A stretch of 64,000 bases of DNA, taken from Eunapius fragilis. Lineage: Eukaryota > Porifera > Demospongiae > Spongillida > Spongillidae. Position 1 is the stretch's first letter. Each line of letters opens with the position of its first letter. Of the stretch, positions 12,029 to 62,452 are shown in pieces. Location: assembly GCA_963681505.1 (NCBI GenBank), contig OY811980.1, forward strand, positions 6,953,572-7,017,571. Reading direction: 5' to 3'. Position numbers and translations under genes: made by a program. The notes under the pieces are model-generated. The model did no database searches. It worked only from the letters and a program-made list of their open reading frames with translations, and was not told the DNA's origin.

Positions 12029-15000
12029 ATGATTGCGTTCGCTTCATCTTGTACCGTTCTCAGTGTGTTTTTGCTTCCACTCCTAACCACAGGTAAGTCG
12101 ATGACCGTAGAGCGGTCGGATGGAAGGGTGGGTGGGGGGATGACTGATTATAATGCCACTCTAATAAAATGTTTAGTTTGTGGTTTACCGCCGGCAAAAA
12201 TTATTATTATTTTGCTTTAAATAAAATCACTAGCAAATGCACTAGCATTACGTATGCATACGTATGCATACGTTGGAGCGCGCGTGTGAATTTTGAAGGT
12301 ACGACAGCAAGTTGGTATCAATTGAGTGTGGCAAACCATTATTTCTCTGCATAATCATCAGTATAATAAAATACTGACAAGTATACGAACGTGCGCGGGA
12401 TCATGGTAGTATCCCATGTTTAAGATAATATATATTATCTCTGGTTTAAGAAAAGATTATGTTGGTGAATGTGTGCGTTATTTTAGAAACTGAACAGAAG
12501 GGACTGTTCGGCTGGCAGGTACAAGTTGAAAACCTTGATATGACGCGTATACGTACCGTGTGTTGTTTAGAACAAAACTGAACCTTGACATCGCCATCTG
12601 GGACTCTAAAATTAGTCAGCTGTTAATTTGTAAACGCGTAGTTGCATGTGTTAAATCCGAGCCTTACTCTAATATATATGCTCGAGCTAAATGTAGGGGG
12701 GGGGGGGGGGGGGGGGGGCGTGCCCCAGCCTGAGTGTACGTAGCACTAGCAGCATGCTGGCGTTGTTTTCTGCCGCCACTTGGCAAATAGCTATATTGAT
12801 CGATTTCAAGCGTGGGCTGGCTGTTAATTTGTTGTAATGCCTATTACATGTAACTACGATCTAACATGTAATTTATTAATAAGGATGTCCATTCTTTTAA
12901 ACGAGGATGATCGTCGGATTCTGATATATGAAGCGCACTCGGTTCATTATTGTTGAAAATTTATAGGTTAGGTTGAAGATGAGGATACAATCATACATGA
13001 TTATTGAAATGTAGGCTTGCATGGCAGCACCATAAGAATCTATAGGGCTGCACAAAATTCGGTTAATACCAGTTCGAACTAAAAATGACGGGCCATATTT
13101 ACATGTAATATGTTGTTGGTGTTGAGTGCCACTGCTAAGCACAGGAAGGTTAAAAAGTGCAGGTTACCAAAGAGTAGGGATGTTAGTGTAGAGGTGGGTA
13201 CATGAAAGGGCTAAGCCCCTCCCACTAAACTGCTAAACCACCTCTTCCCCATCAATGATATGTGTTCCATTTTGCATACATTACTTGTGGTGTTCTTGAT
13301 TATAGAGTGATTATTCATACCTCAGGTCAACCTAGAATCACTTGGAAACTGATCATTGCAGTTGCCAACAACAGTCTGGTGTCCCTGTCAGCAGTTACAC
13401 CAAGAGTGAGTGCAATAAATGAAACACCAACCAGGAATCCTCTGGTGTGTGAGGGTATAACAGGTGGACAGTGGTATCAACCAAATGGAGCTCTATTTCC
13501 ATTAGCAACACCAGACCCTGTAACTACCCCTGGGGGGTTGGGTCAACAAAATGTGTCACGAGGAGTAGAGCTGTATCGTGGAACTCCTTATGACTTCCCA
13601 CATGGTGTTCAATGTTGTACCAATACCATCATCACACTCTGTGTTGGAATGTACACTGATCTCACACTAGCAGCATCATCAGGCATAGCTGCATCAGGCA
13701 CTATGGGCTATACTCTCTCTGTAGCAGCCACTTGTAAGTAGAGAGGAAAGTACATCACATGTGTTATGGAAGTGTTGACTCTCCCACAGATGGTCCTAAC
13801 ATCACAGGAGGTGTCCAGTTTCAGCTGTTGACACCTACAAATGTTGATCCACCAGTGTTCCAGTTGACCTGCACCAGCACTAGTTCTCTCCTACAACTGT
13901 GCAGTGGACCATCAATGGAATTCCAGTGAATGGTGGTAACTATACTTCCTCTCAGATAGTGACAGATCGACCAACATCTACTTACAACAACACCCTGACT
14001 GTGACTGGGAGAGCACCTGGGATGTACACATGCACTGTCACCACTACCTGCTCACCAGTGTGTGGAAGTAATGGGTTTACACACAGATACAATAAAACAT
14101 CCTTCAATGTCAGGTAAGTACTGCTTACAAAGTGTGTCTTGTACCTATAGACATGTATCTCTATACAGGTCCTCCTGCCCCACCCACTGGTGTCACTGCT
14201 GTGCAGTCTGGTCCCACATCTGTCAGTGTCTCTTGGACTGCACCAACCTCAGGTGGTCCAGTGAGCAGATATGATATCTACTATGTGGCTAATGGAGTCC
14301 CAAGTACAATTAAGTGGTGGTTCAACCACTTCTACCTCTTATGTCCTAACCAACCTTCAAGTTGGGGTTCAGTACAACATCAATTATCAACAGCAGGTAC
14401 AAAGTCCTTTAAAAATTAATAACTATAGGTGATTTCAAAGAAGATGATTGGTTGGGCTGCATTTAATCTTGTGCTTAAGTAAAGGTTGTTGTACCGCATG
14501 TAGGCCTAATGTGTTGTGCTTAGGTTTTCTGGAATTGCAGCATTTCAGCCAGTGTAAATCTGGTCAATCTGCAGCCTATTGCATCTGTATAAGATGTGCA
14601 TTGTACATCTTTCAGTATACAGTCCACCACCTGGTCCAGTGAGTGGACTACAAGCCTTCAACAATACCTTCATAACCATCACACTCACATGGCTACCCCC
14701 TCCTACCCCCAATGGAGTGATCATCATGTATCAGGTGACCTACTCCACCAATGGAATAGTTAACACAAACACACCCCCAGTGACAATAACAGGACTGGTA
14801 CCAAGGACCACCTACACCTTCTCTGTCGTTGGTTACACCATCACTGGACCAGGGACATCACAACAAGTACAGACCAGTACTGCAGCTATACATGAGTGTA
14901 CAGCTGTTACTGTATCTACACATACACCTGCATGATGCTTTAATGTTGTACCCTTCAGCCAATGTGACAGGAGTGGTGGTAGTAGCCACCAACACAACAT

Positions 15001-15713
15001 CTGTCAGAGTGTCCTGGCTGGCTGTCCAGTGGCTCCCTCAAGATGGCATCCTTACAGGGTACACTGTGTATTATCGTTCTCTTCCCAACACTTCAAAGAG
15101 GCAGTCGGGTGGGTACATCAGTCAAACCTTCCCACCAACCACCACCTCTGGGAACATCACCAACCTCAGTCCTAATGGAGCGTACCAGTTCAGTGTGGTA
15201 GCCATGGTGACCATTGCAGGACAGTCATACAATGGAGACATCCCATCATCAGGAGGTGACACACCCACCATCACACCAGGTTAGGACTATCTCGTGGCAA
15301 TATCACAACTAATGACATGTGATGTTGAAGGTACCCCAAACAATATGTGCAACTCATACTCTGGAGGAGTGCTTGCTGGCTCACTTATAGCTGAGTTTGT
15401 TATTCTTGTGGTTGTCACTGTGATCATTGTGGTTTTGGTGGAGTACTATAGGTAGAAACAAAGGTGTGGTCTCTAATTAGAATCTGTTTGTACTATTACT
15501 TTTTCTGACACCAATCAATCACAGTAAGGCAAGATCAAAAGGTGAATATTCTAACACTCGGTAAACATTTTGAACCAATACATACATCTCTCCCATGTTT
15601 GAACCAATACATACATCTCTCTCAGTGATGTGATCACCATGAAGTCATGTGATGCATATGATGAAATAAGAACAGGTGGACAGGACAGCTATGAAGTGGT
15701 TGGACACAAGTAA
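12029..15713 (+). pseudogene. receptor copy A: signal peptide-Ig-like-Ig-3xFN3-TM-tail, disrupted
   Basis: Exons by comparison with copies B and D: signal peptide 12029-12092 (MIAFASSCTVLSVFLLPLL), N-terminal Cys-rich domain 13326-13733, Ig 13790-14113, FN3-1 from 14169, FN3-2 from 14616, FN3-3 14959-15279, TM 15331-15451, tail 15626-15713. Lesions against the intact copies: a 1-nt deletion in the Ig exon near 13885 leading to a stop; a 4-nt insertion near 14308 in FN3-1 with the end of that domain missing; and loss of the FN3-2 splice donor near 14889 (GTGAGT changed to ATGAGT). FN3-3, TM and tail remain open. The tail carries Y-D-E-I, seven residues, then Y-E-V-V, an ITAM-like layout. The protein would be a single-pass surface receptor. 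It is probably a pseudogene, though assembly errors could account for some single-base lesions. Confidence 0.75.
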
Positions 15714-15815
15714 CGCAGAACACACAGTTATATTTATATAAAAGTGCCAAAGGTCTTGCTAAGCAGTTACTCTACATTAATTTTAGTTCATCACAGCCCC
15801 ACAGACACACAGACA

Positions 15816-16161
15816 GTTAGCTAATCATACCACAAACATGTTTAGCTAAACATCTTTCTGGGATACATATTCGCCGGGCTGGGACAGCTCATAAAATGGT
15901 TGGTAGCCATTTTTTCCCTCCTTACAACAGTTTGTTTGTTTAGGTAGCTAAGGGTGCTGTCAAAACACTACAATATGATTATCATTAATTGCTTTGATTA
16001 TGGTTAGCTTTGTTGTGACAGCATGGCCACTGCCTTAAAGGAACAAACTGTTGTAAGGAGGGAAAAATGGCTACCAACCATTTTATGAGCTGTCCCAGCC
16101 CGGCGAATATGTATCCCAGAAAGATGTTTAGCTAAACATGTTTGTGGTATGATTAGCTAAC
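15816..16161. mobile_element. 346-bp foldback element with about 120-bp terminal inverted repeats
   Basis: The left arm starts GTTAGCTAATCATACCACAA (15816) and the right arm ends with its reverse complement (16161). The arms stay complementary through the TTACAACAGTTTGTT segment near 15937. The middle, about 100 bp, is unique and non-coding. This fits a MITE. The corresponding place after copy D (about 60730) lacks it, so it inserted after the duplication. Confidence 0.85.
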
Positions 16162-16539
16162 CATGGTAAAAGTTTGGTCAGGATTGTATTTTAATATTTT
16201 TGGATACATCATACTTCATTACAAATTCATGACCCCATTCATGGTATGTACTAAAATGAATCATTTTTGTGTTCTCCTTTGTATTGACAATGATTAAGTA
16301 CAAATTGATCTGACAGCAATGTTGCAGGCTAAAGATATGCTAAACCGAAATGAGCGAGGTCACAAAGAAAGTGAAAATTTTAATTCCTTGCATTTTAAAA
16401 CTGTACACTATAGAGTATACAAATGTACCGTTATTTTGCATGTTCCTATGGGGAGAGCACATAGGGAAAGTAGCATGTCCAAACTAGACTATGATGCTAA
16501 AAGGGTGGCAAATATATATATATGGAATTACCCTACAAC

Positions 16540-16871: not shown

Positions 16872-17517
16872 GTGGTCGGGAGGTGTGGTCAAGCCGTTCC
16901 TCCTTGGGGTGTGGTCAGCCATTCCTCCTTGGGGTGTGGTCCTGCTTATCTAGATGTTTTGTGTTCACTCTCTTTACAAAGCAAGAGATAATATCATTGC
17001 AACACATTGCTTATGAACCAGGCTTGACATTACATCATCTTGAAGCACATGAAATAAATGATCTTAACTTAAATAACAGTGGCATTAATGTATGGCCATA
17101 GTTGTATATTATTGCCAGCCACTAGTATCTCTACCATTGGTGTTGCAATGGTTTAAGATGGCAGACCAGGTGGTTTCCATTCTCCCATGTAGGCCTTACC
17201 ACCAAGCCCTCAGCCATAAGGGAAACAGCAGCAGCCATTGTGGTCATTGGGTACAGCAGTGCTTGGCTTTGAGGAGTGGGGTACATGTGGTGATGGTCAT
17301 ACAACCCTATGGGATCCTGACCAGTCACACTCCATGTTATGTAACTATGGGTAACAGTACCAGTGATTGCATAGCCTTATGCCTCAGCTAGCCTCATGTA
17401 TCATTGGCTAACCCCTTATTGGTTAGCCCCCTCATGTATCATTGGCTAGCCCCCTCATGTATCATTGGCTAGCCCCCTGAGAGATATGTACATGTAGTCT
17501 AGCTACATATCTCCCAG

Positions 17518-17605
17518 TGATGGCATCACCATGAAGTCATGTGAGGTATATGGTGAAATAAGAACAGGTGGACAGGACTGCTATGAAGTGGTTGGACACA
17601 ACTAG
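17518..17605 (+). CDS. second ITAM-like cytoplasmic tail exon of receptor unit A
   Basis: Acceptor CTCCCAG precedes an 88-nt phase-2 exon that ends in TAG. Its peptide contains VYGEI-RTGGQDC-YEVVGHN. It matches the tail exon 15626-15713 and lies after the duplicated FAF1 exon. Splicing from 15626-15709 (AA|GTAACG) to this exon would keep frame and double the tyrosine modules. Whether it is used is unknown. Confidence 0.55.
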
Positions 17606-18885: not shown

Positions 18886-21800
18886 ATGATTGCGTTCGTA
18901 CTCTGGGCACTTCTACTCCTAGCCGCAGGTAAGTCGATGTGAGAAGTTTCCCATCAGCTAGCTACATGTTTAGTTGATGGGATGATTACCATAATGGACC
19001 TTTGTTTGTTTTTACTTCATCAGCACATGCTTATAGATATTAGCGTAACTTCTCTCACCGGCATGCGCACACACTGGATCTATAGTTTGTGTTAGTGTCT
19101 TTTAACACTTTTAAGGCCAATCCTAACTACCTATTTATCATTCTCCTTTTCGGAAACCGGACCGCGGCCGGCCTGTAAGATAGTATATTTTAATGGGCGT
19201 GGCTGCTATGGATAGCGTCACCTTTAGATGCGTTGCAGGTCTCTGGAGCCTATAGACTTAGCAGTTATGCCATCACTCATGTGTGCTAGGGTCCGCGGAG
19301 GGATTTTACGAGTCCACGATCCGCCCATTTGGTGCGGCACATGCACAGCCGGTTGTTTTATAAGACAGCGTTCTTTGTATCCACTTGTTCTGAACGAACA
19401 ATAACTACCAGTACACCGAAGCATGTGAAATACTATCACATGAAACAAAAACATGAAATACTATCACATGAAACAAAATAAATTACCGTGAGCTTACAAC
19501 TGACTAGAAGGTATATGTGCAAATATATGCCTCTACCTTCATATTTTAGACCTATTACTCCCTGCTTTGACTCTGTAACGCGCACTCCCAGCCCCAGGAT
19601 TCAGTTCAGTAGTCAGAATGTCTCATACCACAAACAAACATGTATATATATATATGCAAAGGTATATCTAGATCTTTCTAGATCTTTCTAGTGTGCGTGC
19701 ATGTCATGTGCTTGGTTAACACCAGAGGTGCAAAGTAACTGCCACTACACTCGCACTCGTCACCCTCTCTTCTGAGCTCAGTATCCCAGTCTTTCTGGTG
19801 CATGCCTTTCTCTCAGCGGGTATCGCCTCTCAGCCTGAGAAGTGAGTTGCTCAAAGTGGTCTACTCCAGGTGGTTCCCACGGCTGTGTGCTGCTGTCTGC
19901 TGGTGTTGCTGAATGAGGGGCAAGTTGGGACTTGACTGCTGGCAGGGTTCGTCGATGAAGACGGTTGGTGTGCACCACTTTTGTGCGTTCTCCATCAGTA
20001 ATCTCCACGGTGACAGATGATTTCGTACTCCTTACAGTCCAGTTTCCCTCCCATCGCGGATCGAGTTTGCCTGCTGTGGGCACTGACAACCACACCAAAT
20101 CCCCAGACTTAAACTGCCTCTCTGCTGAATGCCTGTCATAGTCCACTTTCTGCCTACTTGCAGACTCAGCGATGTGTGCCTCCACCAGGTCCTGTAGCTC
20201 AGCCATCTTTGCTTGTAGTACAGCCTGGTATGATGTGGCTTCATAACCTCTAGGGGGGGTTAACATGTTTGACTGATGGTGCCTTCCGTACATCAGCATA
20301 AATGGGGACACTCCAGTGGAGGTGTGGGTGGCAGTTCTATAAGCGTATAAGGCCAGTGGCAGGTATTGTTCCCAGTCTTCCTGTCTCTCCACATAAGTTC
20401 GCAGCAGCTGTAGTAATGAGCGATTAAACCTCTCCACCATCCCATCGCCTTGTGGGTGGTAGGGTGTGGTGTGGCTTTTCTTCACCCCAAAGGCATCCAG
20501 TGTGCTCTGGACAATGCTGCTCTCGAAATTTCGACCCAGGTCCGAGTGAACGATTTCTGGAACACCGTATGTGCAGAACAGTTTGACCAATTCTGCTGTG
20601 ATTCGTATGGCTGTCTGGTCTGGGAGTGGTCTGGCATCAGCCCATTTGGTGAAGTAGTCCTGTATCACCAGCAAATACCTGTTGTTCTTGGTGGACACTG
20701 GTACTTCTAGGATGTCAATTGCAATCATCTGCCATGGGCTTCCAACAGGTATGTTTGTGAGTGGTGACCTTACTGGCATTGGCAGCTTGGACTTCTGGCA
20801 TGTGGCACATTCCCTGCAATGTCTGTCCACGTCCTGGGCCATGTTCACCCAGTACGCCTCACGCCGTATCCTCTCCAGTATCTTCAGTGTCCCTTGATGG
20901 CCTGCTGCTGGGGAGTCATGGCTCATACTCAGAGCTTGCTGGTGCAGTGTTTCTGGTAAAACTGGGACCACAATGGTTTCAGAAGTAGGCCCTGGCTGGT
21001 ACTTCCTGCAAACAATACCATCCACAGTGACAAGTTGTGGCCAGAACTGTGCATATCTCCTCAGTGGTGGTTGTTTCCAGTGTCTGTGTGGGTGGCGTTG
21101 CTCAGACTGGAGTGCTTTGTATAGCTGCTGGATTGTTTCGTCCTGTTGTTGTGCTTGCCTGATCTCTTCTGCTGTGAAGGATGCATGCACTGTGGTCAAG
21201 GCTGTGTACCTAGTTTCCATGTCTGGCCCTCTTCTTCGTGACAGTGCATCAGCATTCCCATTGGTTGATCCCTTTCTATACACAATCTCAAAGCTGAATT
21301 CCTGTATTGCCAGAGCCCAGCGACACAAGAGGCCTTCCATCTTCTGCTCACCCAACCACTGCAGTGGGGCATGGTCTGCCATTAGTTGGAAGATGCGTCC
21401 CAACAAATAGTGGCGGAACTGTTTCATGGCCCACACAATTGCCAAACACTCACGCTGGGTCACACTGTAGTTGGCCTCTGCTTTGGTGAGTGTGCGACTG
21501 GCATAGCCAATCACTCGCTGATCTTGCTCCAGGACAGCCCCCAGGCCTACATTGCTGGCGTCTGTCTGCAGTACCATAGTGCTGGACAGTTTGTCGAACC
21601 GTGGGTATGCAAGGACTGGTGCCTCTGTCAGGCTTGCCTTCAGCCTCTGAAATGACTCCTCGCATGCCTGTGTCCATTGAAAGGGAGTGTCCTTTTGGGT
21701 CAGCTGATGTAGTGGAGCTGCTATGTCGGCAAACCTGTCAAAGTACTTGCGATAGTATGAAGCAAGTCCAAGGAATTGCCGCACCTCTGCCTCATCTTTT

Positions 21801-24800: not shown

Positions 24801-27800
24801 ACCCCCCAGGGATTATGGCACACTCAAGGTTGATCGTCAACTCTGCAGCATAGCAATATTTGTAGCCCCCATTCCATCATTCCACAATATGCAAGGATTC
24901 GTTTCTTAGCACCCCTTCGTGCACGATCATTTCATATCTCCCATAGGTCAACCTAGGATCACCTGGAATCAGAATGAACTGTTTGTGATGGCTGCCAACA
25001 ATAGCCTGTGGTCTCTCGCAGCAGTACAAAACAGAGTGAGCACATCCAACCAATCAGCATACATGAAACCTCTGGTGTGTGAGGGTATAACAGGTGGACA
25101 GTGGTATCAACCAAATGGAACCCTGTTTCCACTAGCAACACCAGACTCTGTAACCATGGGAGGGTTGGGTCAACGAAATGTGTCACGAGGAGTAGAGCTG
25201 TATCGTGGAACTCCTTCTGACTTCCCACATGGTGTTCAATGTTGTACCAATACCACCATCACACTCTGTGTTGGAATGTACACTGATCTCACACTAGCAG
25301 CATCATCAGGCATAAATGGAACTACTAGCTATAATCTCTCTGTAGCAGCCACTTGTAAGTAGAGAAGAAAGTACATCACATGTGTTATGGAAGTGTTGAC
25401 TCTCCCACAGATGGTCCTAACATCACAGGAGGTGTCCAATTTCAGCTGTTGACACCTACGAATGTTGATCCATCAGTGTTCCAGTTGACCTGCACCAGCA
25501 CTAGTTCTCCTCCTACAACTGTGCAGTGGACCATCAATGGAATTCCAGTGAATGGTGGTAACTATACTTCCTCTCAGATAGTGACAGATCGACCAACATC
25601 TACTTACAACAACACCCTGACTGTGACTGGGAGAGCACCTTGGATGTACACATGCAATGTCACCACTCTAACCTCTCCCCTAATCAGCTGCACTTCACCA
25701 CAAATGTGTAATACAGGGCCTATTCTTAGTCAAAGATCCACTACCTCATCCCTCAATGTATCAAGTAAGCACTGCCTATGAAGAGTGTCTTGTACCTACA
25801 GACATGTACCTCTCTATACAGGTCCTCCTGCCCCACCCACTGGTGTCACTGCTGTGCAGTCTGGTCCCACATCTGTCAGTGTCTCTTGGACTGCACCCAC
25901 CTCTGGTGGTCCAGTGAGCAGATATGATATCTACTATGCTGCTAATGGGGTCCCAAGTACAAGTGGTGGTTCAACCACTTCTACCTCTTATGTCCTAACC
26001 AACCTTCAAGTTGGGGTTCAGTACAACATCTCTGTCATAGCTATGGGCACTTATATACCATCTCAGAGTGGTATGTTTTATTAACCATGTTGGTTAGCTG
26101 AAGTAAATGTTAATGTAATGGCAGGGTGATGCCCTGGGGGTAGGGCAGGGTTATTAAATATCAATTTGTGTTGTGGTATAACAGAAGTAATTTATGGTGT
26201 GTGTAAATGTTTTGAACATTAGGATGTTGAATTATAAATTCCAAGTGTGTTGTCCCTTATGGAATGAGACCCCCATACTTCTCAACTGTGGATGGCCACC
26301 TTGCATATCCCAGTATACCTCTGATTATCCCTGCTTATCCTTGAATATACTTCTCTATATTCATTTTGTTTTACTTGGTATTTTGGTATGTCCACCACAG
26401 TTACTACAAACAGTACCTTGGTGTTCATCTCTGGTGGCTACCCTCTTCATACAACTACCACCTTCTCCCAACCTACAAGTGCTGTCCCCTCCTCCTCTCC
26501 TACCTCCTCCTCCTCCTCCTCCTCCTCCTCCTCCTCCTCCTCCTCCTCCTCCAACGGTGGTATAATTGGTGGGATCATTGGAGCACTGGTGGTTGTGGTG
26601 TTGATTATCATCATTGTTACCATAGCAATACTCCTCCTGAGGTAGGCTACCCAGCAGTACGTATAATTCATTACCATTGTCCACAGATGTAGGGAAAATG
26701 GAGCTACCAAACCAGAAGCAGTCTATGACATGGATGAGAAGTATTAATGACCCGTATTAAAAACACCATTATTGTTAATAATAACATCATTAACAGCATA
26801 GCCATGAATACACTGCACTGACTATAAGGGACTATTTAGCTATGAGCAACCCTCTATGCAAACTAATAGTTGGCAGCGTTTATATTTTTTTCCATATGAA
26901 ATAGTTGGTACTGTAACCTGTATCAACATTTAGGAAGTGTTAATTAACTCATCATACCATGACCATCACCTCCTACCATGACCATTACCTCTTCATACCA
27001 TGACCATCACCTCCTCATACCATGACCATCACCTCCTCATACCATGACCATCATCTCTTCATACCATGACCATCACCTCCTCATATCATGACCATCACCT
27101 CCTCATGCCATGACCATCACATCCTCATACCATGACCATCACCTCCTCATGCCATGACCATCACATCCTCATACCATGGCCATCACCTTCTCATACCATG
27201 ACTATCACTCTCCTTAGACATTGTGCTCATAAGTCTGAAGCAGGGACCTGTGAAGCTGTGGGTGACAAGAAGTAAGCTCACATACACACCCCCACCGTTC
27301 TACTTTCCTCTCATGTTATTTCTTTAGCCATTACTGTACCATTCCCTTCCATCCTCCTATTCCTTCCTTCCCTTCACACTCCTTTCCTGTAAGTGTTGAA
27401 GGTGTTAGTTATGTGTGTTGGTTGCTTTCAGAAAAGACCCTCCCACCAAATCATCAAGTCCCCAGACCATGGTTTGCTCCCGCAATGATGTAGATCATCA
27501 ATATCTGAACATTACAAAAACAGGTATCCTCCTCCCCTCCCCTTCCCTCTCCTCCACCTCCACCTCTCACCAACACCTCTCATTCCCTTCCATTTACTTC
27601 CATTCTTTACCCTCCAGCCTGGTCCACTTTCTCTCTCCTCCCTCTTCTCTCCTCCTTCTCTTCCTTCCTTTCCTTAAGCCTTTCCTATTCCCTGTTTCTT
27701 CTCTCCCTCATTCAGTCCCCTCCCCCTGCCTCCTTGCCCCTCCCCTCCCTCCCTCCCTCCCTCTCCTTCCCTTCTCTCACCAATATCTCCTCTCGTACCA

Positions 27801-30800
27801 GCTCCCACCATTAAGGAGTTCCCCTCTAACCATGATGTGGTGGATGGGGAGGAGGTGGTCTTCAATGTTCGTGTCACAGGATACCCAAGGCCCTCCTTCA
27901 CCTGGTACCATAATGGGACCAAGGTCACCACAGACCACTCCCTCACCATTGGGGAGGATGGAAGCCTTGTCATCCACACAGCAGAGATGGAACAAGCTGG
28001 TGTGTATGAACTGGAGGTGGCCAATGAACTAGGTGTGGACAGACGTAAAGTGTCCCTTGGTGTGTACGGCAGTGAGATAGAGCTGCCTGGGGACTACCAG
28101 ATGACCATACCAATAATACCATTGGCCAAGTTTGGACAACATGTATCAAAGAATCACGAGAAAAACAATGCTGGGTTCAACAATCAGTACAGGGTGAGTG
28201 GGTGTGGCTATCTCCATGGTAACAAGAGGGTTTTAACCCTTATGTGCCCTTAATTAGTCTCTGGAGTCCAGTACGAAACGTCCCTCCACTGTGGCCACTA
28301 GTGCTGATAATAAGACACTCAACAGATTTGCCAACATTGTGCCCTGTGAGTTTGGGGTGTAGGGACTGGGGATGAGGGATCACGTGCCACACCCTCATGC
28401 CTACAGATGATGAGAATCTAATCCAGCTCTCTCCAATGGAGGGCCAACAAGACTGTCAGAGGAGCTACATCAATGCTTCTTTCATTTCTGTGAGCACTTG
28501 AATTGATGGTGTTCCATGAACCACAAGATGTGTTCCTTCTTAACAGGGATACTCAGGGCCAAAGAAGTTCATAGCCACTCAAGGTAGCTCACCTCTCGTG
28601 AAGCATGTGACCTCTTACCTCCTCCATCTTTCCCCCTCTCTCCAAGGTCCTCTTCCACCTACTATTGTGGACTTCTGGAGGCTGGTGTGGCAGGAGGGTG
28701 TGCCTTCCATCGTCATGGTGACCAGCATCAAGGAGGATGGCAAGATCAAGTGTCAGCAGTACTGGCCAGAGTCAGGCCATCAGAAGTATGGTCCCTTCAC
28801 TGTAGCCACCACTGAGAATAAGGAATTTGCAGACTATGTCATCAGGGTCTTTGAAGTGTCTGTGAGTTTTAGTGGGCAACTGATGTTCAGTATACTGTGG
28901 GATACTGTGGGATACTGTGGGATACTGTGGGTGTGGGATACTATAGGGGTGAACCATGACAATAGGTGTGGGCACTAGAATGACCTGTGTTCATTTTGTT
29001 GTGTCCCTACTACATGCATACTATTAGTTTGCTCAGGATACTGTGGGATACTACTAGTATCTGCAATGTATAGCAAAAGCCTGGATGGTTGGAATCTGCT
29101 AGCAATATACAGTAACTCAATATACTGTACCTACATGTAGCTACATGGTTTACTGAGGGTCGATAGAGCTCATACATTGTTGTGTGGTCCCCAGCCCACC
29201 CTCTAATGCATATTGGTGGGCTTCAAATAGAATTGTACTCCTAATTCATTAGCATTAGTGTGTACAAGCGTTGCTATGATAACAATAATAGTTAGTGCAG
29301 TATGGGCTGGGTAACTTGTAGTCGTTTGTTCACAATCATGGCAAAGCCAATATTTAAGATAGACTAGCTGCTCTAAAATAGTTTTGTTATCACATGCATA
29401 TAGCAACACTTATTAGTACACACCAATGCTAATGAACAAGGTGGGTGCAGCACTGGAGACCACTAAGATAGCATCAGTGTGGGTAACACTGTCACCACTA
29501 AGTAAGCAATGTGGCATGGTCCCCAGTCCTTCCACCCTCTCATCCTCCTCCCGTAGCTGTCAGGGTCAGATGTACCCAAAAGGAAGGTGATCCAGTATCA
29601 CTTCACTGGCTGGCCTGACCATGGGGTACCAGAGTATGCCACCTCCCTCTTGGCCTTCCACAGGAAGGTCAAGTCCCAACATGATGGGGGCAGGGGACCC
29701 CTCTTGGTACACTGCAGGTGGGTGAGGGGAGGAGGGAGAGGGGTGTCATGGTGACCCCTGAGACCCTGCAGTGCTGGTGTGGGGCGCACGGGAACACTGA
29801 TTGCGATAGACACAGTCCTGGAGCAGGTAGAGAAGGAGGGAATGGTGGACATAGCTGGTACCATCAGGAAGATGAGACGACAGAGGATGAAGATGGTTCA
29901 GACACCTGTAGGTCACCTCCTGTAGCCCCTCCCACCCCTCTCTCATGCCCCTCCCACTTCCTCTATCATAGGATCAGTACATATTTCTCCATGATGCCAT
30001 TCTGGAGTCAGTGATGTGTGGGAACACTCAGGTCCAGGTCTCAGATATCCATGTCTCTCTGAACTCATTCCAAACCAAGGATCCTGTGTCAAATAAAACT
30101 GGACTGGAATCTCAGTTTGAAGTACTTGTGACATTCCATCTCTGATGTGATTGATTGATCAATTCATCATCTGTATACCTGTGCAGGTCCTGGGACAAGT
30201 GTCCCCTGATCCCACATCAGTCAGCAGAGATGTTGCCATGGAGGACACAGGAAAGAACCGCAGTATGGACTATCTCCCCCGTGAGTAGGGAGGGGGGAGA
30301 GGGAGAGAAAGGAGGCAGTGTGGGGAGGGAGGGAGGTAGAAGGAAGAGGAGGAGAGGGATGAGGAAATGGCCTGGCCAGTGTGTTAGATTTTCATCATGT
30401 GCACATTCTCTCTGTGTGCAGCTGACAGGTCTCGTGTTATCCTCAAACAGGAATATCCTGATTACATCAATGCCTGCTTCGTTAACGTAAGTACTGGTTA
30501 TTGCCTGTCATTAAGGTTAGGGTTGCCATGACTACATTGCTCCTCCCACCCCAGGGATACAAGCAACAGAAGGCCTTCATTATAGCCCAAGGTCCCTTGA
30601 AGTCCACATGTAGAGACTTCTGGAAGATGGTGTCTGACAGGAAATGTGGAGCCATTGTCATGTTATCCCAGCTCCTGGAGGAGGGGAAGGTGGGTGGAGC
30701 CTGAACTGGTGCCCAGACCATTATCAGTCCCATGTGGTATAAAGGAGGTATGTCACCAGTACTGGCCAGACCAAGGGATAGAGAGCTATGGGGAGTTCAC

Positions 30801-31471
30801 CATAGAGAGTGGAGGGCAGGAGGTCCATGATGGCTACACCACAAGGACACTGTACCTGGCTGCTGCCAAGGTGGGTGTGGCCACTGTTGATATGCTGGCT
30901 GTGTGTATGTGTGTGTATGTGTGTCATTGTGTGTAGAGGTGTATGGTCCTCTGTGATAAACATCTGCAGAGTACACAAAAACATCAAGTGACCCAGTTCC
31001 ACATCACCAACTGGACACCTGATGGGGTGTGTGCTAACCTTGCCACCATCACTGATGTCATTGAAGAGGTGGACAAGGTGCAGAGAGGGACTGGGAACCA
31101 CCCCATTGTGGTGCACTGCAGGTACCTCCTCCCATCCCAACCATAGCCCCCTTTGGATCATGTGAGTTCACATGATGCTTCCTCCTCCCCCTTCCAGTGA
31201 CACAGTGGGAAGGTCTGGTATGTTCTGTGCCATCACCATGGTGACCCAGCAGTGTAAAGCAGAAAGAGTGGTGGGTGTGTTCCAGACAGTAAAGGCTATT
31301 CGTACCCATAAGCCTGGAGCTGTGCTCACTGTGGTAAGCTGTACTTGGTACTCTATTGAACCATAGGGTTATCTGTTTATATCTCCATGGATACAGGACC
31401 AGTACCAGCTAATCTTTAAGGTAGTGGTGGTCTTCCTTGATCAGTTCAACCAGTACTCTAACTTCCGATGA
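18886..31471 (+). CDS. receptor copy B: Ig/FN3 receptor protein tyrosine phosphatase with cytosolic Ig domain
   Basis: Twenty-two exons join in phase to 3,486 nt (1,161 aa): 18886-18928, 24947-25354, 25411-25764, 25822-26070, 26401-26641, 27218-27271, 27432-27523, 27802-28193, 28258-28345, 28407-28489, 28547-28583, 28647-28861, 29557-29717, 29772-29907, 29972-30121, 30187-30280, 30422-30486, 30555-30689, 30745-30870, 30970-31121, 31198-31333, 31397-31471. Order: signal peptide (1-14), Cys-rich N-terminal domain (15-150), Ig (151-268), FN3 (269-351), Ser-rich stalk, TM (about 408-431, [18 protein letters not shown]), linker, I-set Ig lacking both disulfide cysteines (about 481-572), PTP D1 (WPD D773, [10 protein letters not shown] with Cys805), PTP D2 (Cys1091 in [15 protein letters not shown] instead of WPD). 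D1 should hydrolyse phosphotyrosine; D2 looks weak or inactive. Intron 1 holds a Ty3-type element. Joining the ectodomain and PTP parts into one transcript is inferred from phase; they could be two genes. Confidence 0.85.
19574..19762 (-). repeat. putative 3' LTR of the Ty3-type element
   Basis: Its outer 40 bp equal the sequence next to the primer-binding site. The inner end is set by a purine-rich tract (GAAGAGAGGG on the minus strand) followed by TGACGAG. The length, about 189 bp, is an estimate, as the other LTR is incomplete. Confidence 0.6.
19778..22714 (-). CDS. pol: pol: reverse transcriptase, RNase H and integrase of the Ty3-type element
   Basis: One open frame of 978 aa. The RT has [36 protein letters not shown] and the YIDD active site. 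RNase H has [14 protein letters not shown] and RHYLLG. Integrase has the HHCC finger (H...H...[11 protein letters not shown]), IAIDIL and [10 protein letters not shown] for the first two catalytic acids, and [10 protein letters not shown] with the third. The C-terminus has a GPY-like fold region but no chromodomain that I recognise. The intact length suggests recent activity. Confidence 0.95.
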   Translation of the reverse strand: MESRERERRAKVCTVASLEDPVADEADECAIPIFNELAEAEFPGYIKSCFEETVQQARDRFVKTPGQTTLACHQINTVGPPARVPPRRIPAHFQQEVQEQMNDMLRKGIIVESSSVWLAPAVYTRKKTGEIRLCVDYREVNKRTSKDAYPLPLIDEVQDRLSGATIFSKLDLQCGYWQVPVDPKDQEKTAFSPGPGMGLFQFTRMPFGLCGAPSTFQRLMDVVMRGLPFVTTYIDDVLIHSVSEEMHKSHLEQAFQRLREAGLTLRGSKCQIGMAQVTYLGHTFSREGMSPDRSKVEAVVNWPQPKDEAEVRQFLGLASYYRKYFDRFADIAAPLHQLTQKDTPFQWTQACEESFQRLKASLTEAPVLAYPRFDKLSSTMVLQTDASNVGLGAVLEQDQRVIGYASRTLTKAEANYSVTQRECLAIVWAMKQFRHYLLGRIFQLMADHAPLQWLGEQKMEGLLCRWALAIQEFSFEIVYRKGSTNGNADALSRRRGPDMETRYTALTTVHASFTAEEIRQAQQQDETIQQLYKALQSEQRHPHRHWKQPPLRRYAQFWPQLVTVDGIVCRKYQPGPTSETIVVPVLPETLHQQALSMSHDSPAAGHQGTLKILERIRREAYWVNMAQDVDRHCRECATCQKSKLPMPVRSPLTNIPVGSPWQMIAIDILEVPVSTKNNRYLLVIQDYFTKWADARPLPDQTAIRITAELVKLFCTYGVPEIVHSDLGRNFESSIVQSTLDAFGVKKSHTTPYHPQGDGMVERFNRSLLQLLRTYVERQEDWEQYLPLALYAYRTATHTSTGVSPFMLMYGRHHQSNMLTPPRGYEATSYQAVLQAKMAELQDLVEAHIAESASRQKVDYDRHSAERQFKSGDLVWLSVPTAGKLDPRWEGNWTVRSTKSSVTVEITDGERTKVVHTNRLHRRTLPAVKSQLAPHSATPADSSTQPWEPPGVDHFEQLTSQAERRYPLRERHAPERLGY
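22669..23448 (-). CDS. protease region of the Ty3-type element, with in-frame insertion
   Basis: The aspartic protease motif [13 protein letters not shown] lies near 23060-23095, followed by [14 protein letters not shown]. Upstream of the active site about 92 codons derive from the inverted-repeat insertion 23101-23376 ([10 protein letters not shown] repeats). The end overlaps the pol frame start by about 45 bp. Confidence 0.8.
   Translation of the reverse strand: MFVASIRSGASIVNGLVGGMTVEIPSKKFLDKIPAQDLDQLAQDLDQLAQDLAQFAQDLPKILPKVPRLCRPISGQDLGQDLTQDMARSQPPGKILASCQDLALLGKNLAQELFAGIMLDSGSSVSLIRQDIAKCLNGTTSAGDTPKLRLVSAGGEELPIVNSVKAAVKLRGIVEVPEHSFIVVEQLISQVILGVDFLQQQGLVLDFTTSPVSVTVTRQRKQTPVSTVPKPAPLPEPEMLLQHSIWKAERERGEQRCVL
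23101..23376. mobile_element. 276-bp inverted-repeat insertion inside the retrotransposon
   Basis: CCCAGCAAAAAGTTCTTGG at 23101 and its reverse complement ending at 23376 bound the segment. AAT flanks both sides (23098-23100 and 23377-23379), a possible 3-bp target duplication. The interior is built from copies of the palindrome CCAAGATCTTGG and variants. The length is 92 codons exactly, so the protease frame stays open. Confidence 0.8.
23463..24270 (-). pseudogene. gag of the Ty3-type element, frameshifted
   Basis: It starts [20 protein letters not shown] just after the primer-binding site. The frame breaks in a run of eight A (minus strand, near 24079-24086), and the remainder continues in another frame with the retrotransposon gag domain and one zinc knuckle ([14 protein letters not shown]). 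A single homopolymer indel separates the two parts. It forms the particle core in active elements. Confidence 0.8.
24282..24292 (-). other. primer-binding site, initiator tRNA-Met type
   Basis: On the minus strand TGGTAGCAGAG follows the LTR end (TTACA) after one base. It is complementary to the 3' end of animal initiator tRNA-Met (CTCTGCTACCA). Confidence 0.8.
24334..24946. other. receptor B intron 1, right of the retrotransposon, with 45-bp repeat
   Basis: Three units of about 45 bp (AGCATGAAGCAGTCTTTGAC then CACAAACC...) occupy about 24638-24760. No exon was seen before the acceptor at 24946. Confidence 0.7.
26687..26747 (+). CDS. alternative short-tail exon of receptor B
   Basis: This exon follows the TM exon with a proper acceptor (GTCCACAG) and phase 2. 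It encodes [19 protein letters not shown] and then TAA, giving a 451-aa receptor without phosphatase domains. Copy C has the same exon (37757-37814). The PTP form needs this exon to be skipped, or spliced onward at AA|GTATTA. Confidence 0.7.
26940..27205. repeat. 24-bp minisatellite CATACCATGACCATCACCTC, receptor B
   Basis: About 11 units lie in the intron between the TM exon and the linker exon 27218-27271. The inverted partner gene C has a short array of the same unit at 37500-37565, which supports common descent of both 3' regions. Confidence 0.9.
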
Positions 31472-31615: not shown

Positions 31616-31618
31616 AAT

Positions 31619-40200: not shown

Positions 40201-40734
40201 CTTTGCGTGCCCATCGCTAGTGTTGTTGACGTATGGCAACTACTAGTAACCTCTCTGTCAGGTAACTGTACTTTCTAAGGAACGTCGTTATTTCATAGTA
40301 AAACATAACACATACATATATATCAGTCAACTCTGCCAGGTCCATATCTATCTTTAATATCTAAATTAATTATGTTCCGCCTGAATGACTACAACTGATT
40401 GCTATCTTAATTTCACTATGTCCTGAAATGCTGAAATGTCCGCACATCGAATCGCTAGCTGATCAATATGACTGACAGAAGGTGTAATAATGTTTGCGGA
40501 GTGTTGTTGAGTCTAGTTTCTTTATAGGCCTGAGTAGCGTATATGCGTTTTCTATTAGCTCCTCCGTACATCATGATCTTGAACCTAGCACTCGCTGATT
40601 GAATTTGGCCGACAGGTCGCGTGAAACCAAACAGACAAGGGATACAAAACTAATACCATCCACTTACCTGCGGCTAGGAGCGGAAGCGTACAGAGAGCGG
40701 CACATGCGAATGAGTAGCAGATATGATGGTGCAT
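37217..40734 (-). CDS. receptor copy C: Ig-FN3-TM receptor with ITIM-like alternative tails
   Basis: Exons on the minus strand: signal peptide 40668-40734 (MHHHICYSFACAALCTLPLL), Cys-rich domain 39226-39633, Ig 38816-39169, FN3 38510-38758, TM 37860-38016, then tail 37757-37814 ([18 protein letters not shown], stop). This gives 430 aa. Ectodomain exons have the same lengths as in copy B (408, 354, 249 nt) and nearly the same protein. Two more tail exons follow in the same phase: 37444-37498 (SEAVTYEVVGDK) and 37217-37271 (AEGVTYEVVNKK). Both contain V-x-Y-x-x-V, matching the ITIM consensus known to recruit SH2 phosphatases. Each tail stop (AAG TGA or AAG TAA) overlaps a GTGAGT or GTAAGT donor. 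A stalk segment at about 38030-38185, homologous to B, does not join in frame and may be skipped. No phosphatase domain follows. Confidence 0.8.
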
Positions 40735-53875: not shown

Positions 53876-53879
53876 TACC

Positions 53880-55735: not shown

Positions 55736-55739
55736 TGCA

Positions 55740-55891: not shown

Positions 55892-55981
55892 GAGGTCAGC
55901 CATTACTTCTTGGGGATATCTAGATTATGTCATTGATTATGCGCCATTTATTGGAAACTGAAGACAACTGATGGACCAATG

Positions 55982-57910: not shown

Positions 57911-60657
57911 TACAACAGCCCTAGCCCCCAGGCCAGCTTATAGGGACAGCCCTAGTCCCCAGGCCAGCTATAGGGAGTAAAAGCCATTGACACCACTACC
58001 CAATAAACAGACAATGTTTTGTTGTGCCTTTTTATAAAGACCTCATTTTAATTCCATCATTTATCAGATCAGTAATATGGCTGGTCTAAAGATCTTAAGG
58101 AACACATGGGATATTGTACCATGAGGAGGTTGTCCATCCCCAACTGTTAGTGATACTGATCTTGGGAAAGGGATTGTACTACTGACTAGGGCTGTCTTCC
58201 ATGGGATCATTGCTATGTGTTGGCATGTGCATATAAATCAGTGAACTAAGTGTTCTTTAACCACCACAGGCCAGACTGTTGGAATCTTTTGGAATGTGTA
58301 TGGCGCAAATCTAATGGTTGCCAACAACAGTCTGGTGACCCTCTCTGTGATCCAAAACAGAGTGAGTGCAACATCTACCCAACAGTTTCCTCTGGTGTGT
58401 GAGGGTATAACAGGTGGACAGTGGTATCAACCAAATGGAGCTCTGTTTCCACTAGCAACACCAGACCCTGTCACCACCCCTGGGGGTTGGGTCAACGAAA
58501 TGTGTCACATGGAGTAGAGCTGTATCGTGAAACTCCTTCTGACTTCCCACATGGTGTGCAATGTTGTACCAATACCACCATCACACTCTGTGTTGGAATG
58601 TACTCTGATCTCAAAATAGCAGCATCATCAGGCATAATTGGAACTACTAGCTATGCTCTCTCTGTAGCAGCCACTTGTAAGTAGAGAGGAAAGTACATCA
58701 CATGTGTTATGGAAGTGTTGACTCTCCCACAGATGGTCCTAACATCACAGGAGGTGTCCAGTTTCAGCTGTTGACACCTACAAATGTTGATCCACCAGTG
58801 TTCCAGTTGACCTGCACCAGCACTAGTTCTCCTCCTACAACTTCTACTTACAACAACACCCTGACTGTGACTGGGAGAGCACCTGGGATGTACACATGTA
58901 CTGTCACCACTACCTGCTCACCAGTGTGTGGAACTACAGGGTTTACTCTCAATCCAAGATCCACTACCTCATCCCTCAGTGTATCAGGTAAGTACTGCCT
59001 ATGAAGAGTGTCTTGTACCTATAGACATGTACCTCTATACAGGTCCTCCTGCCCCACCCACTGGTGTCACTGCTGTGCAGTCTGGTCCCACATCTGTCAG
59101 TGTCTCTTGGACTGCACCAACCTCAGGTGGTCCAGTGAGCAGATATGATATCTACTATGTGGCTAATGGAGTCCCAATTACAAGTGGTGGTTCAACCACT
59201 TCTACCTCTTATGTCCTAACCAACCTTCAAGTTGGGGTTCAGTACAACATCTCTGTCACAGCTGTGGGCACTTATATGCCATCTCAAATATCAACAACAG
59301 GTACAAAGTCCTTTAAATATAGGTGATTTCAAACAAGATGATTGGTTCGGCTACATTTGATCTTGTGCTTAAGTAAAGGTTGTTGTACTGCATGTAGGCC
59401 TAATGTGTTGTGCTTAGCATTTGCAATTTCTGCTCACATTTCAGCCAGTGTAAATCTGGTCAATCAGCACCCTATTGTATCTGTATAAGATGTACATTGT
59501 ACATCTTTCAGTATACAGTCCACCACCTGGTCCAGTGAGTGGACTACAAGCCTTCAACAATACTTTCACAACCATCACACTCACATGGCTACCCCCTCCT
59601 ACCCCCAATGGGGTGACCATCATGTATCAGGTGACTTACTCCACCAATGGAATAGTCAACACAACCACACCCCCAGTGACAATAACAGGACTGGTACCAA
59701 GGACCACCTACACCTTCTCTGTCGTTGGTTACACCATCACAGGACCAGGGACACCACAACAAGTACAGACCAGTACTGCAGCTATATGTGAGTGTACAGC
59801 TGTTACTGTATCTTACATTTGTTCACACATACACCTGCATGATGCTTTCATGTTGTACCCTTCAGCCAATGTGACAGGAGTGATGGTAGTAGCCACCAAC
59901 ACAACATCTGTCAGAGTGTCCTGGCTGGCTGTCCAGGGGCTCCCTCAAGATGGCATCCTTACAGGGTACACTGTATATTATCGTTCTCTTCCCAACACTT
60001 CAAAGAGGCAGTCGGGTGGGTACATCAGTCAGACCTTCCCACCAACCACCACCTGGAGTGACATCACCAACCTCAGTCGTAATGGAGTGTACCAGTTTAG
60101 TGTGGTAGCCATGGTGACAATTGCAGGGCTGTCATACAATGGAGACATCCCATCATCAGGAGGTGACTCACCCACCATCACACCAGGTTAGGACTATCTC
60201 GTGGCAATATCACAAACCAATGACATGTGATGTTGAAGGTACCCCAAACAATATGTGCAACTCATACTCTGAGGAGTGCTTGCTGGCTCACTTATAGCTG
60301 AGTTTGTTATCCTTGTGATTGTCATGGTGATCATTGTAGTTGTGGTGGAGTACTATAGGTAGAAGCAGAGGTGTGGTCTCTATTTAGAATCTATTTGTGC
60401 TAATACTTTTTCTGACACTGATCAATCACAGTAAGGCACTCATTACATGTCAAAAGGTGAATATTCTAACACTCGGTAAACAGTCTGAACCAATACATAC
60501 ATCTCTCCCATGTTTGAACCAATACATACATCTCTCTCATGTTTGAACCAATACATATCACTCTCCCAGTGATGTGATCACCATGAAGTCATGTGAGGCA
60601 TATGGTGAAATAAGAACAGGTGGACAGGACTGCTATGAAGTGGTTGGACACATGTAA

Positions 60658-61400: not shown

Positions 61401-61414
61401 TCATAGCTTGTCCC

Positions 61415-61632
61415 CATATTACTGCAGCCCCTCCCCTCAGATTACTGCAGCCCCTCCCCTCAGATTACTGCAACCCCTCCCCTCACAGTACTGCAGCCCT
61501 CCCCCTCTGAGTACTGCAGCCCCTCCTCCCATACTTTATATTTATACACAGGTTTCTGGACTTAATTACACAATGACCCTTGAAGAGGTGGGACTTTCCC
61601 CTCGAGAAACCGTGTTTGTGGAGGAGAGATGA
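61415..61632 (+). pseudogene. duplicated last exon of FAF1 with its minisatellite (unit D)
   Basis: The exon copy 61552-61632 keeps a good acceptor, an open frame (MTLEEVGLSPRETVFVEER) and the stop. No other FAF1 exon is near. The flanks match the true FAF1 3' end to about 61860. Confidence 0.88.
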
Positions 61633-62364
61633 GTGATTGGGAGACATGATCAAGCCATTCCTCCTTGGGGGTGTGGCCAACCATTCTCCTTGGGGCGTGG
61701 TCAGTCATTCCTCCTTGAGTGTGGTCCTGCTTATCTAGATTATGTTTTGTTTTGTGTTCACTTTACAAAGCAAGAGATAATATCCTGCCATTTATTGCAT
61801 CACATTGCTTATGAACCAGGCTTGACATTACATCATCTTGAAGCACAGTGATAAAAGTAGCATTAATGTTTGGCCATAGTTGTATATTATTGCCAGCCAC
61901 TAGTGGTAAATAACGTCCAGTACTACTGACATTATGATTAATGTGTAGCTATTATTGTAGTGGATTGGAAATATCTCCACCACTGGTTGAGGTGTTGCAA
62001 TGTCACAGCTGTACCCAATGACTACAATGGCAGACCAGGTGGTTTCCATTCTCCCGTGTAGGCCTTACCACCATGCCCTCAGCTATAAGGGAACCAGCAG
62101 CAGCCATTGTGGTCATTGGGTACAGCTGTGACTTGGCTTTTAGGAGTGGGGTACATGTGGTGATGGTCATACAACTGTATGGGATCCTGACCAGTCACAC
62201 TCCATGTTATGTAACTGTGGGTAACAGTACCAGTGATTGCATATTCTTATGCCTCAGCCAGCCTCATGTATCGTTGGCTAGCCCCTTATTGGCTAGCCCC
62301 CTCATGTATCATTGGCTAGCCCCCTGAGAGATATGTACATGTAGTCTAGCTACATATCTCCCAG

Positions 62365-62452
62365 TGACGGCATCACCATGAAGTCATGTGATGCATATGG
62401 TGAAATAAGAACAGGTGGACAGGACTGCTATGAAGTGGTTGGACACAACTAA
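62365..62452 (+). CDS. second ITAM-like tail exon of receptor unit D
   Basis: Acceptor CTCCCAG, 88 nt, phase 2, reading AYGEI-RTGGQDC-YEVVGHN then TAA. It is in the same position relative to the FAF1 exon copy as 17518-17605 in unit A. Confidence 0.55.

Follow-up and report, generated by a model that had tools for sequence, protein, structure and literature searches.

The question posed by this locus is whether neighbouring receptor genes of a freshwater sponge, Eunapius fragilis, which set one kind of ectodomain on several kinds of signalling end, form an array of the paired-receptor type, and what has kept their ectodomains alike. The window, by which is meant the whole stretch of DNA analysed, comprises 64,000 nt of the forward strand of contig OY811980.1 (6,953,572-7,017,571; assembly GCA_963681505.1). 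An earlier note on this DNA had described four copies, A to D, with Cys-rich, Ig and FN3 modules in common; all of its pieces were located, and the array is larger than that note had it. The reading that probably holds, judged from the genes as predicted, is that of a paired-receptor-type array in which phosphatase and tyrosine tails stand on one kind of ectodomain, its copies held similar through gene conversion.

Four receptor copies and the array around them

Copy A (12029-15713, forward strand) has a broken frame. Position 12029, where the earlier note began it, is the ATG of a signal-peptide exon (12029..12092; MIAFASSCTVLSVFLLPLLTT; phase 1, GTAAGT donor) that is also present in the open copy A6. 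The Cys-rich domain exon (13326..13733), Ig and first FN3 exons with disrupted frame (13790..14396) and second and third FN3 exons (14616..15279; Pfam fn3, matched on the D copy) are followed by a transmembrane exon with a Glu within its hydrophobic stretch, LIAEFVIL (15331..15451), and by a last exon encoding an ITAM-like tail, (Y)SDVITMKSCDAYDEIRTGGQDSYEVVGHK and stop (15626..15713). The donor after the second FN3 exon reads AT in place of GT. A second ITAM-like last exon downstream (17516..17605) is either an alternative last exon or a relic. Copy D (58270-60657, forward strand), which is the A gene of the next cassette, is likewise broken: it has Cys-rich, Ig and first FN3 exons in a disrupted frame (58270..59300), second and third FN3 exons (59512..60186; Pfam fn3), a transmembrane exon that has lost the frame (60239..60358), an ITAM-like last exon (60570..60657) and a second one downstream (62363..62452). 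A search upstream of D for the A-type signal-peptide exon did not find one.

Copy B (18886-31471, forward strand) is open over its modelled part, which begins at the signal peptide and reaches the P3 exon of D1; its exons from P3 to the gene end were read by eye. The signal-peptide exon (18886..18928), with a retroelement downstream in intron 1, leads to the Cys-rich exon (24947..25354), Ig and FN3 exons (25411..26070), a Ser-rich stalk and transmembrane exon (26401..26641), a juxtamembrane exon (26687..26740), an ITIM1 exon, here reading GTCEAV with the tyrosine lost, together with an HQYLNI exon (27218..27523), an I-set Ig domain (27802..28193; Pfam I-set, E 2.3e-16) and tandem PTP exons for D1 and D2 that stop after QYSNFR (28258..31471). 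The phosphatase motifs are intact, with WPDHG in D1 and WTPDG in D2, in agreement with the tandem phosphatase that the earlier note had read here. In the similar copy B4 there is a single strong hydrophobic stretch, and it precedes the I-set domain; by topology the I-set domain of B is therefore predicted to lie on the cytoplasmic side. With one membrane segment (counted in B4), a D1 with WPD loop and HCX5R, and a D2, copy B fits a receptor tyrosine phosphatase.

Copy C (40734-35990, reverse strand) is open if an alternative acceptor of the transmembrane exon is used. It has a signal-peptide exon (40668..40734; MHHHICYSFACAALCTLPLLAA), a Cys-rich exon (39226..39633), Ig and FN3 exons (38510..39169), a stalk and transmembrane exon whose alternative acceptor maintains the frame (37860..38016), a juxtamembrane exon (37761..37814), two ITIM-like exons, AVTYEVVGDK (37448..37498) and GVTYEVVNK (37221..37271), and an ITAM-like last exon (35990..36134; CDAYGEI...CEAYGEIRTGGQDCYEVVGHN and stop). 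This last exon is doubled and has the strand and phase of the VTYEVV exons, so that the predicted tail carries both kinds of motif. The ITIM-type tail claimed for C thus stands as far as the two VTYEVV exons go, but it also ends in an ITAM-like exon, and VTYEVV is not exclusive to C, being found in three of nine PTP-type genes (B2, B5 and B9).

The four copies are one part of a much larger array. The Cys-rich exon occurs at 91 places in the genome, 75 of them within 1.3 Mb of one chromosome (C10:6.93-8.23 Mb), and what lies next downstream of these 75 is PTP exons in 30 cases, the ITAM-like exon in 34 (with VTYEVV additionally present in nine) and neither in 11. A cassette of three genes is repeated about ten times along the array: gene A, an ectodomain with an ITAM-like tail; gene B, an ectodomain with a receptor tyrosine phosphatase; and gene C, convergent to B, an ectodomain with two VTYEVV exons and then the kind of ITAM-like exon seen in A. 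The window holds one such cassette and, in D, the disrupted A gene of the one that follows. The count of two broken and two intact copies agrees with the frames described above, and the fast turnover that had been proposed is supported: frames are broken in 10 of the 12 A-type copies read, including both in the window, and one Ig segment, common to B and C, shows in-frame indels and swaps. All nine B copies are open over the modelled part, and the three PTP exons that gave a ratio have pN/pS values of 0.17, 0.17 and 0.48.

The Cys-rich domain itself had no match in Pfam, nor in the PDB when searched with the B copy. It has so far turned up only in the Eunapius genome and in Ephydatia muelleri, to which all 30 matches listed in a search with the Cys region belong.

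Ectodomain likeness across signalling types

In the window the ectodomain DNA of B and C is 97% identical, whereas A and D stand at 89-90% to both, so that the description 'often nearly identical' suits B and C and is less apt for A and D. On a tree of 24 ectodomain copies those of B and C, about 95% alike, are interleaved: the B label requires six changes, of which the starred branches enforce three, and A forms a single clade (100/100). The upstream flanks behave otherwise. Sharing of 15-mers is 0.56 for the ectodomains and 0.00 for B-C upstream flanks (30 pairs), as against 0.44 when B flanks are compared with each other (15 pairs) and 0.29 for C flanks (10 pairs). Interleaved ectodomains beside unrelated flanks indicate exchange of ectodomain sequence, that is gene conversion, across signalling types. 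B-C partners within one cassette showed no significant excess likeness over other B-C pairs (p 0.11 and 0.07, 7 pairs).

Highly similar ectodomains on differing signalling ends, carried by neighbouring genes in this array, are found in E. muelleri as well, where gene models place one ectodomain on either the tail or the PTP end. Of the 71 proteins that a first search brought up, 9 end in the ITAM-like tail, and in two others, P0076 and P0077, that ectodomain is followed by I-set and PTP domains, P0076 supporting the receptor phosphatase architecture of copy B. Ectodomain identity in that species is 90.3% between tail and PTP types (16 pairs) and 89.3% among tail types (28 pairs). At the level of predicted genes the layout is confirmed as that of paired receptors, a shared ectodomain with different signalling ends, in the array and in the E. 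muelleri models. The word 'opposing', which the earlier note applied to the tails, fits less well, since the predicted tail of C mixes ITIM-like and ITAM-like motifs; the clearest counter-acting end would be the predicted phosphatase of B.

Tyrosine tails, a candidate reader and the explanations compared

The ITAM consensus is YxxL/I-x6-12-YxxL/I, with Leu or Ile usual at the last position, and that of the ITIM is (I/V/L/S)xYxx(I/V/L). VTYEVV, as found in C and in three B copies (B2, B5 and B9), is a sequence match to the latter. The tails of A and D end, as had been noted, in Y-D/G-E-I-x7-Y-E-V-V, within a 29-residue tail of form Y-x-x-I-x7-Y-x-x-V in A receptors; the second motif terminates in Val and is thus ITAM-like, not canonical. 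The tyrosine pattern proves nothing by itself, because it has dozens of matches in the six frames of the window. The tail exon as such is not a product of chance: it was listed at 65 places genome-wide, 50 of which have a same-strand ectodomain no more than 6 kb upstream, where roughly 0.12% would be expected, and E. muelleri proteins carry it too. Motif and seven-residue spacing are kept in 35 of 41 tail exons read, one of the 35 having an internal stop. Strong constraint on the tail lacks support inside this genome, the pooled pN/pS of tail exons being 0.85, and between species the tail is 62-72% identical (five comparisons), a conservation no better than that of the ectodomain. A VTYxxV motif joined to an ITAM-like tail was seen in none of 82 proteins examined, which leaves the full C tail without second-species support.

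A candidate reader of such tails is present. Two SH2 domains lie 3 kb apart, each with SYK as best PDB sequence match (E 1.3e-37 and 1.1e-34) and each closest to its C-terminal SH2 domain; by these matches the genome has a tandem SH2 of Syk/ZAP-70 type. No kinase match near it was among the matches listed, and no SHP-type pairing of SH2 and PTP (within 40 kb, one strand) was found among the 33 PTP and 70 SH2 matches listed, a search that split exons could escape.

A mechanism consistent with these parts can be proposed. If the predicted exons are spliced as modelled and the products reach the cell surface, one ligand class would collect several receptors of the array; a Src-type kinase would place phosphates on the A and C tails; the Syk/ZAP-70-type protein would bind the doubly phosphorylated ITAM-like tail through its tandem SH2; and B phosphatases, recruited by the same ligand, would strip the phosphates and so set a threshold. 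Gene conversion, by holding B and C ectodomains alike, would ensure that both ends meet the same ligand. ITAM adaptors of vertebrates pair with a partner through charged membrane residues, and the conserved Glu of the A membrane segment may by analogy mark subunit pairing with a partner that has a basic membrane residue. Put more boldly, this could be an array of the sponge's own with three kinds of receptor, one variable ectodomain on an ITAM-like tail, an ITIM-plus-ITAM tail and a receptor phosphatase, in which gene conversion would maintain the match and a Syk-type kinase would act as reader; that fuller version is tentative, and, if true, would place paired-receptor recognition balanced by kinase and phosphatase at the base of the animal tree.

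What the array would recognise is a separate matter, and a role in self/non-self recognition is only inference. One proposal, compatible with the paired-receptor reading and sharing its signalling logic, is recognition of pathogens or symbionts, with microbial ligands and arms-race turnover. The many broken A-type copies and the changing Ig segment speak for it, as does a like explanation offered for Xenopus CEACAM paired receptors in the part of PMC5112662 that treats them; by sequence it is not separable from allorecognition, and it stands as a serious candidate that falls somewhat short of probable. Allorecognition, equally compatible, appears rather doubtful: ectodomain alleles would bind each other or a polymorphic partner where sponges meet, and the balance of phosphatase and tails would decide between fusion and rejection. 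The large array, the variable Ig segment and the presence of ITAM-like, ITIM-like and phosphatase ends suit it, and ITIM and (hem)ITAM-type motifs are described on candidate allorecognition genes of Hydractinia and Botryllus in the relevant part of PMC12065747, but in a paper on the Amphimedon graft transcriptome the terms immunoglobulin, fibronectin, tyrosine phosphatase and receptor are all absent from a count over the main text. Least likely is the view that adhesion-type receptor phosphatases have simply multiplied in tandem, their ectodomains alike through recent duplication and conversion, and that the ITAM-like and VTYEVV tails are truncated or alternatively spliced by-products with no counter-action: it draws on two PTP exons whose constraint is the strongest of any part measured (pN/pS 0.17), the high tail ratio, a distal array half of mostly PTP genes lacking the ITAM-like exon, and VTYEVV and juxtamembrane exons common to B and C, but signal peptide, upstream flank and membrane exon are all particular to the A-type genes, and the tail exon, with its many places and kept spacing, ends separately predicted proteins in E. 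muelleri.

Relation to known receptor systems

Receptor tyrosine phosphatases with Ig and FN3 ectodomains are known as types IIa/IIb and R3. Copy B resembles them in its Ig and FN3 ectodomain, one membrane segment, active-looking D1 and D2 with altered motifs, and is unlike them in the I-set domain between membrane and D1, in its ITIM-like exons and in an ectodomain that tail-type receptors also have. A receptor phosphatase with an Ig domain predicted on the inner side, in two species, would be a further odd architecture.

The paired-receptor-type array that we favour has close parallels in other systems. CEACAM1/CEACAM3-type receptors and the CEACAMs of Xenopus are, in the portions of the sources that describe them, Ig-type receptors in clusters, whose ligand-binding domains closely resemble one another and are adjusted by gene conversion and whose tails are ITIM or ITAM-like (PMC5112662; PMC2832619); a phosphatase-ended member, such as the sponge array has, is not named in those portions. 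The sponge ectodomain differs further in its Cys-rich domain without Pfam or PDB match, and C in mixing both motif kinds. Siglec-11 and Siglec-16 offer a second likeness, in that repeated gene conversion keeps the ectodomain-coding region alike and the activating partner often occurs as a non-functional allele, as that part of the source relates (PMC5701461); they are, however, one gene pair where the sponge has about ten cassettes, and the same part mentions no phosphatase-ended partner comparable to B. Among invertebrates, Hydractinia Alr and Botryllus FcoR are clustered receptors (FcoR of Ig type) whose cytoplasmic parts bear ITIM, (hem)ITAM or Y-x-x-I/L/V motifs; their ectodomains, by description, look unlike that of the sponge array, and their loci are tied to allorecognition, whereas the sponge array may be no more than a candidate for such a role (PMC12065747, in the pertinent part). 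That part of the source also reports no conservation of allorecognition candidates between sponges, cnidarians and ascidians, and describes ITIM/(hem)ITAM-type motifs for cnidarian and ascidian candidates, not for sponge ones (PMC12065747). An array of this kind in a sponge, combining such tails with a phosphatase end in a genome that has a tandem SH2 of Syk type, would extend the same signalling logic to sponges, and would supply a concrete locus, already sequenced, as a candidate for recognition in these animals.

Architecture and extent of the array

The receptor genes are of three types that share Cys-rich, Ig and FN3 ectodomain exons and differ in their ends. Type A genes (copy A and copy D, the A gene of the second cassette) encode a signal peptide (none was found in D), Cys-rich domain, Ig, three FN3 modules, a membrane segment and a 29-residue tail. 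In copy B, signal peptide, Cys-rich domain, Ig and FN3 are followed by a Ser-rich stalk, membrane segment, juxtamembrane YDM, a first VTYEVV-type exon (ITIM1), an HQYLNI exon, an I-set domain (window 27802-28193) and the tyrosine phosphatase (PTP) domains D1 and D2, and copy C is B-like through ITIM1, after which come a second such exon (ITIM2) and an ITAM-like last exon in doubled form. The signal-peptide exon is specific to each type and has a GT donor of matching phase; within the contiguous 266 kb scanned, which does not take in the 5' regions of copies 7 to 9, these exons lie 5' of B1-B6, the orphan copy B3x and C1-C4 (about 11.5 and 9.8 kb upstream in B3 and B5), and among A copies only of A1 and A6. 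No Pfam family matches the Cys-rich domain, the B copy of it matches none of the PDB sequences, and the AlphaFold2 model of protein P0006 is poor (pLDDT 41).

The sole strong hydrophobic stretch of copy B4 precedes the I-set domain, which by topology would therefore sit on the cytoplasmic side, between membrane segment and PTP D1. Receptor phosphatases bearing this I-set domain number 15 copies in the array on contig C10 and occur in two sponge species overall; the Ephydatia muelleri model P0076 has the domain order of copy B. A distant I-set copy lies near PTP exons at C16:6123178-6123585.

The window corresponds to C10:6953572-7017571. Across the genome (219 Mb, 24 contigs), 99 stretches matching the Cys-rich exon merge into 91 places, and 75 of these fall within C10:6.93-8.23 Mb. 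Ends were assigned by walking strand-wise downstream of each ectodomain to the next ectodomain or for 15 kb, and PTP counts are lower bounds because they are drawn from the matches listed, a part of the 192 in the genome. Within the array, at least 30 ectodomains lead to PTP exons, 34 to the ITAM-like exon (nine of these with VTYEVV exons as well) and 11 to neither; among the 16 elsewhere, eight have a tail exon, one has PTP exons (from the matches listed) and seven have neither. PTP matches off C10 were mostly left out of the map, and among those listed none was seen by eye beside an off-array ectodomain. The tail-exon count of 65 is 83 matches minus 18 first or split halves of doubled exons, with E >0.001 in five of the 65 places. 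About ten A-B-C cassettes with convergent B and C genes occupy 6.93-7.37 Mb, cassette 5 being rearranged, and PTP genes are more numerous in the distal half of the array.

Reading-frame integrity, examined in the DNA of nine cassettes, differs by type. In each of B1-B9 the frame stays open from the first modelled exon as far as exon P3 of D1, the PTP catalytic exons having been read in B1 alone; the orphan B3x has no PTP exons. Ten of 12 A-type copies are broken (A6 and A8 are open), as are C5, C6 and C9. The remaining six of nine C copies are open, C3 and C7 directly and C1, C2, C4 and C8 by another in-frame acceptor, the C1 membrane-exon acceptor of the C models leading to stops in all four; the openness of these four is thus a model choice of acceptor, not RNA evidence. 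Breakage is more frequent in A than in B (7/9 vs 0/9, Fisher p 0.002; 10/12 vs 0/9, p 0.0002), and for A vs C the figures are 7/9 and 3/9 (p 0.15).

Several other elements accompany these genes. An LTR retroelement with RT, RNase H and integrase domains lies in intron 1 of B (window 19778-24276, minus strand), and since most of this stretch is common to the flank of B4, it probably predates the B/B4 duplication. A 34-bp minisatellite of about 115 copies lies where the 3' ends of B and C face each other (31612-35532), with similar arrays in other cassettes, and a 29-bp minisatellite immediately precedes the tail exon at 15560-15625 and 36139-36306, reaching the splice acceptor. A block at 11.0-11.65 kb has further copies at 16.5-17.1 kb and 61.4-61.9 kb; a tnp2-type transposase reading frame of 563 aa lies at 46226-47917 (minus strand). 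At the array edge, with extents judged by eye, are a MutS-domain gene (3416-4338, minus strand) and a UBA-like domain stretch (4315-11392, plus strand).

Ectodomains shared across different ends

The earlier note had proposed a shared ectodomain joined to opposing tails, in the layout of paired activating and inhibitory receptors. The first part of that proposal stands: B and C ectodomains, on different ends, are 95.3% identical when they belong to one cassette and 94.7% when they belong to different ones, close to B-B (95.1%) and C-C (94.4%) values, truncated C copies included throughout. In pairwise scans the resemblance of B1 to C1 is confined to the Cys-Ig-FN3 block, a short part of the stalk (81%), the membrane and juxtamembrane exons and the ITIM1 exon (85%), and the two have nothing in common upstream of the block; B-B and C-C pairs have kilobases of flank in common. 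The likeness of B and C extends over the introns within the block, which points to exchange of DNA between them. In a maximum-likelihood tree of 24 of the 28 copies (omitting B3x, a duplicate of B3, and the truncated C5, A3 and C9), A forms a single clade (100/100), whereas B and C copies are intermixed; six changes are needed to account for the B label, a number reached by 92 of 500 shuffles. Of the variable Ig segment classes SPQM, GTPPV, ADLC and TEMC, the first three each occur in both B and C. A matching of B to C within cassettes was also considered, and same-cassette partners proved not significantly closer.

A search with the Cys-rich region returned 30 matches, every one a gene model from Ephydatia muelleri (order Spongillida), with best identities to its receptor models of roughly 60-80%, which marks the host as another freshwater sponge; the first protein search also returned proteins matching the FN3 part only. 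In that species tail-linked and PTP-linked ectodomains are 90.3% identical, and tail-linked ones 89.3% among themselves (eight tail and two PTP models). The ITAM-like C-terminus ...CDVITMKSCDAYGEIRAGGQDCYEVVEHK, or a near form, ends nine of the 71 first-search proteins, all from E. muelleri, and the mixed ITIM-like and ITAM-like tail of C was found in none of the second-species proteins examined. As these models are described as AUGUSTUS predictions trained with RNA-seq (PMC7385117), they support the predicted transcripts short of proof.

Tails and their candidate partners

The motif Y-x-x-[ILVM]-x7-Y-x-x-[ILVM] is intact in 35 of 41 tail exons read, counted without pattern filter, one of the 35 having an internal stop. 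In a set chosen by a pattern fixing M, C and both Y, the tail exon gave a pN/pS of 0.85, against 0.17 for two PTP exons, so constraint on the tail within this genome is, on these comparisons, not demonstrated. Values for exon X (1.99), JM, the juxtamembrane exon (0.94), Ig (0.96) and Cys (0.78) tell against a simple story; the PTP exon P2 gave no ratio. Of the nine A copies modelled first, seven have a Glu in the membrane segment, A2 and A5 being out of frame at this point, and so do all 11 E. muelleri models inspected.

The tyrosine pattern by itself was dropped as evidence, having dozens of chance matches. VTYEVV has 63 matches genome-wide vs 29 for the reversed pattern, at 21 places in the array, two elsewhere on C10, 36 on C20 and four on C3; one C20 place, judged by eye, seems to be an unrelated repeat next to NHL-like sequence, and places on C20 and C3 were excluded from counts. 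A-type genes have a further ITAM-like last exon 1.8-1.9 kb downstream of the first (window 17516-17605 and 62363-62452), which is either an alternative last exon or a relic. A small set of ITAM-like tail exons at C1:1.956-2.03 Mb has no close Cys-rich match; the one locus read there encodes FN3 and a membrane segment containing Glu.

Two SH2 domains lie 3 kb apart at C10:3.46 Mb, their best PDB sequence matches being SYK and then ZAP-70, and both match the C-terminal SH2 of SYK best. No kinase match lies near the pair among the matches listed, so we infer the kinase of a Syk-type gene. An SH2-SH2-kinase on C19 was set aside as a candidate for Syk, its translations resembling by eye another SH2 kinase; further SH2 and tyrosine-kinase-type matches exist in the genome. 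No SHP-type SH2-PTP neighbour was found among 33 PTP and 70 SH2 rows, and the phosphatase in the same array is supplied by B.

A paired-receptor reading and its parallels

We favour, with some reserve as the search did not reveal a kinase part for the Syk-type gene, the reading of this locus as a paired-receptor-type system. The tails of A and C would be phosphorylated by a kinase and recognised by a Syk-type protein, B may act as the eraser, and ectodomain conversion could hold the A, B and C receptors to one ligand; that the ends antagonise each other, what they bind and what the array does for the sponge we infer likewise. The simple activating and inhibitory split of the earlier note is not established, since the tail of C is mixed.

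Sponge ITAM/ITIM or phosphatase receptors of this kind are not described in the titles and opening lines of abstracts of the papers returned by searches of a mainly open-access literature, nor in the portions consulted of PMC11999971 and PMC7385117. Parallels are found in other animals. CEACAMs (PMC5112662) and Siglec-11/16 (PMC5701461) are presented as paired receptors maintained by conversion, as may hold for the sponge array, and the tails find theirs in the candidates of Hydractinia and Botryllus, whose ITIM and (hem)ITAM motifs have been reviewed (PMC12065747).
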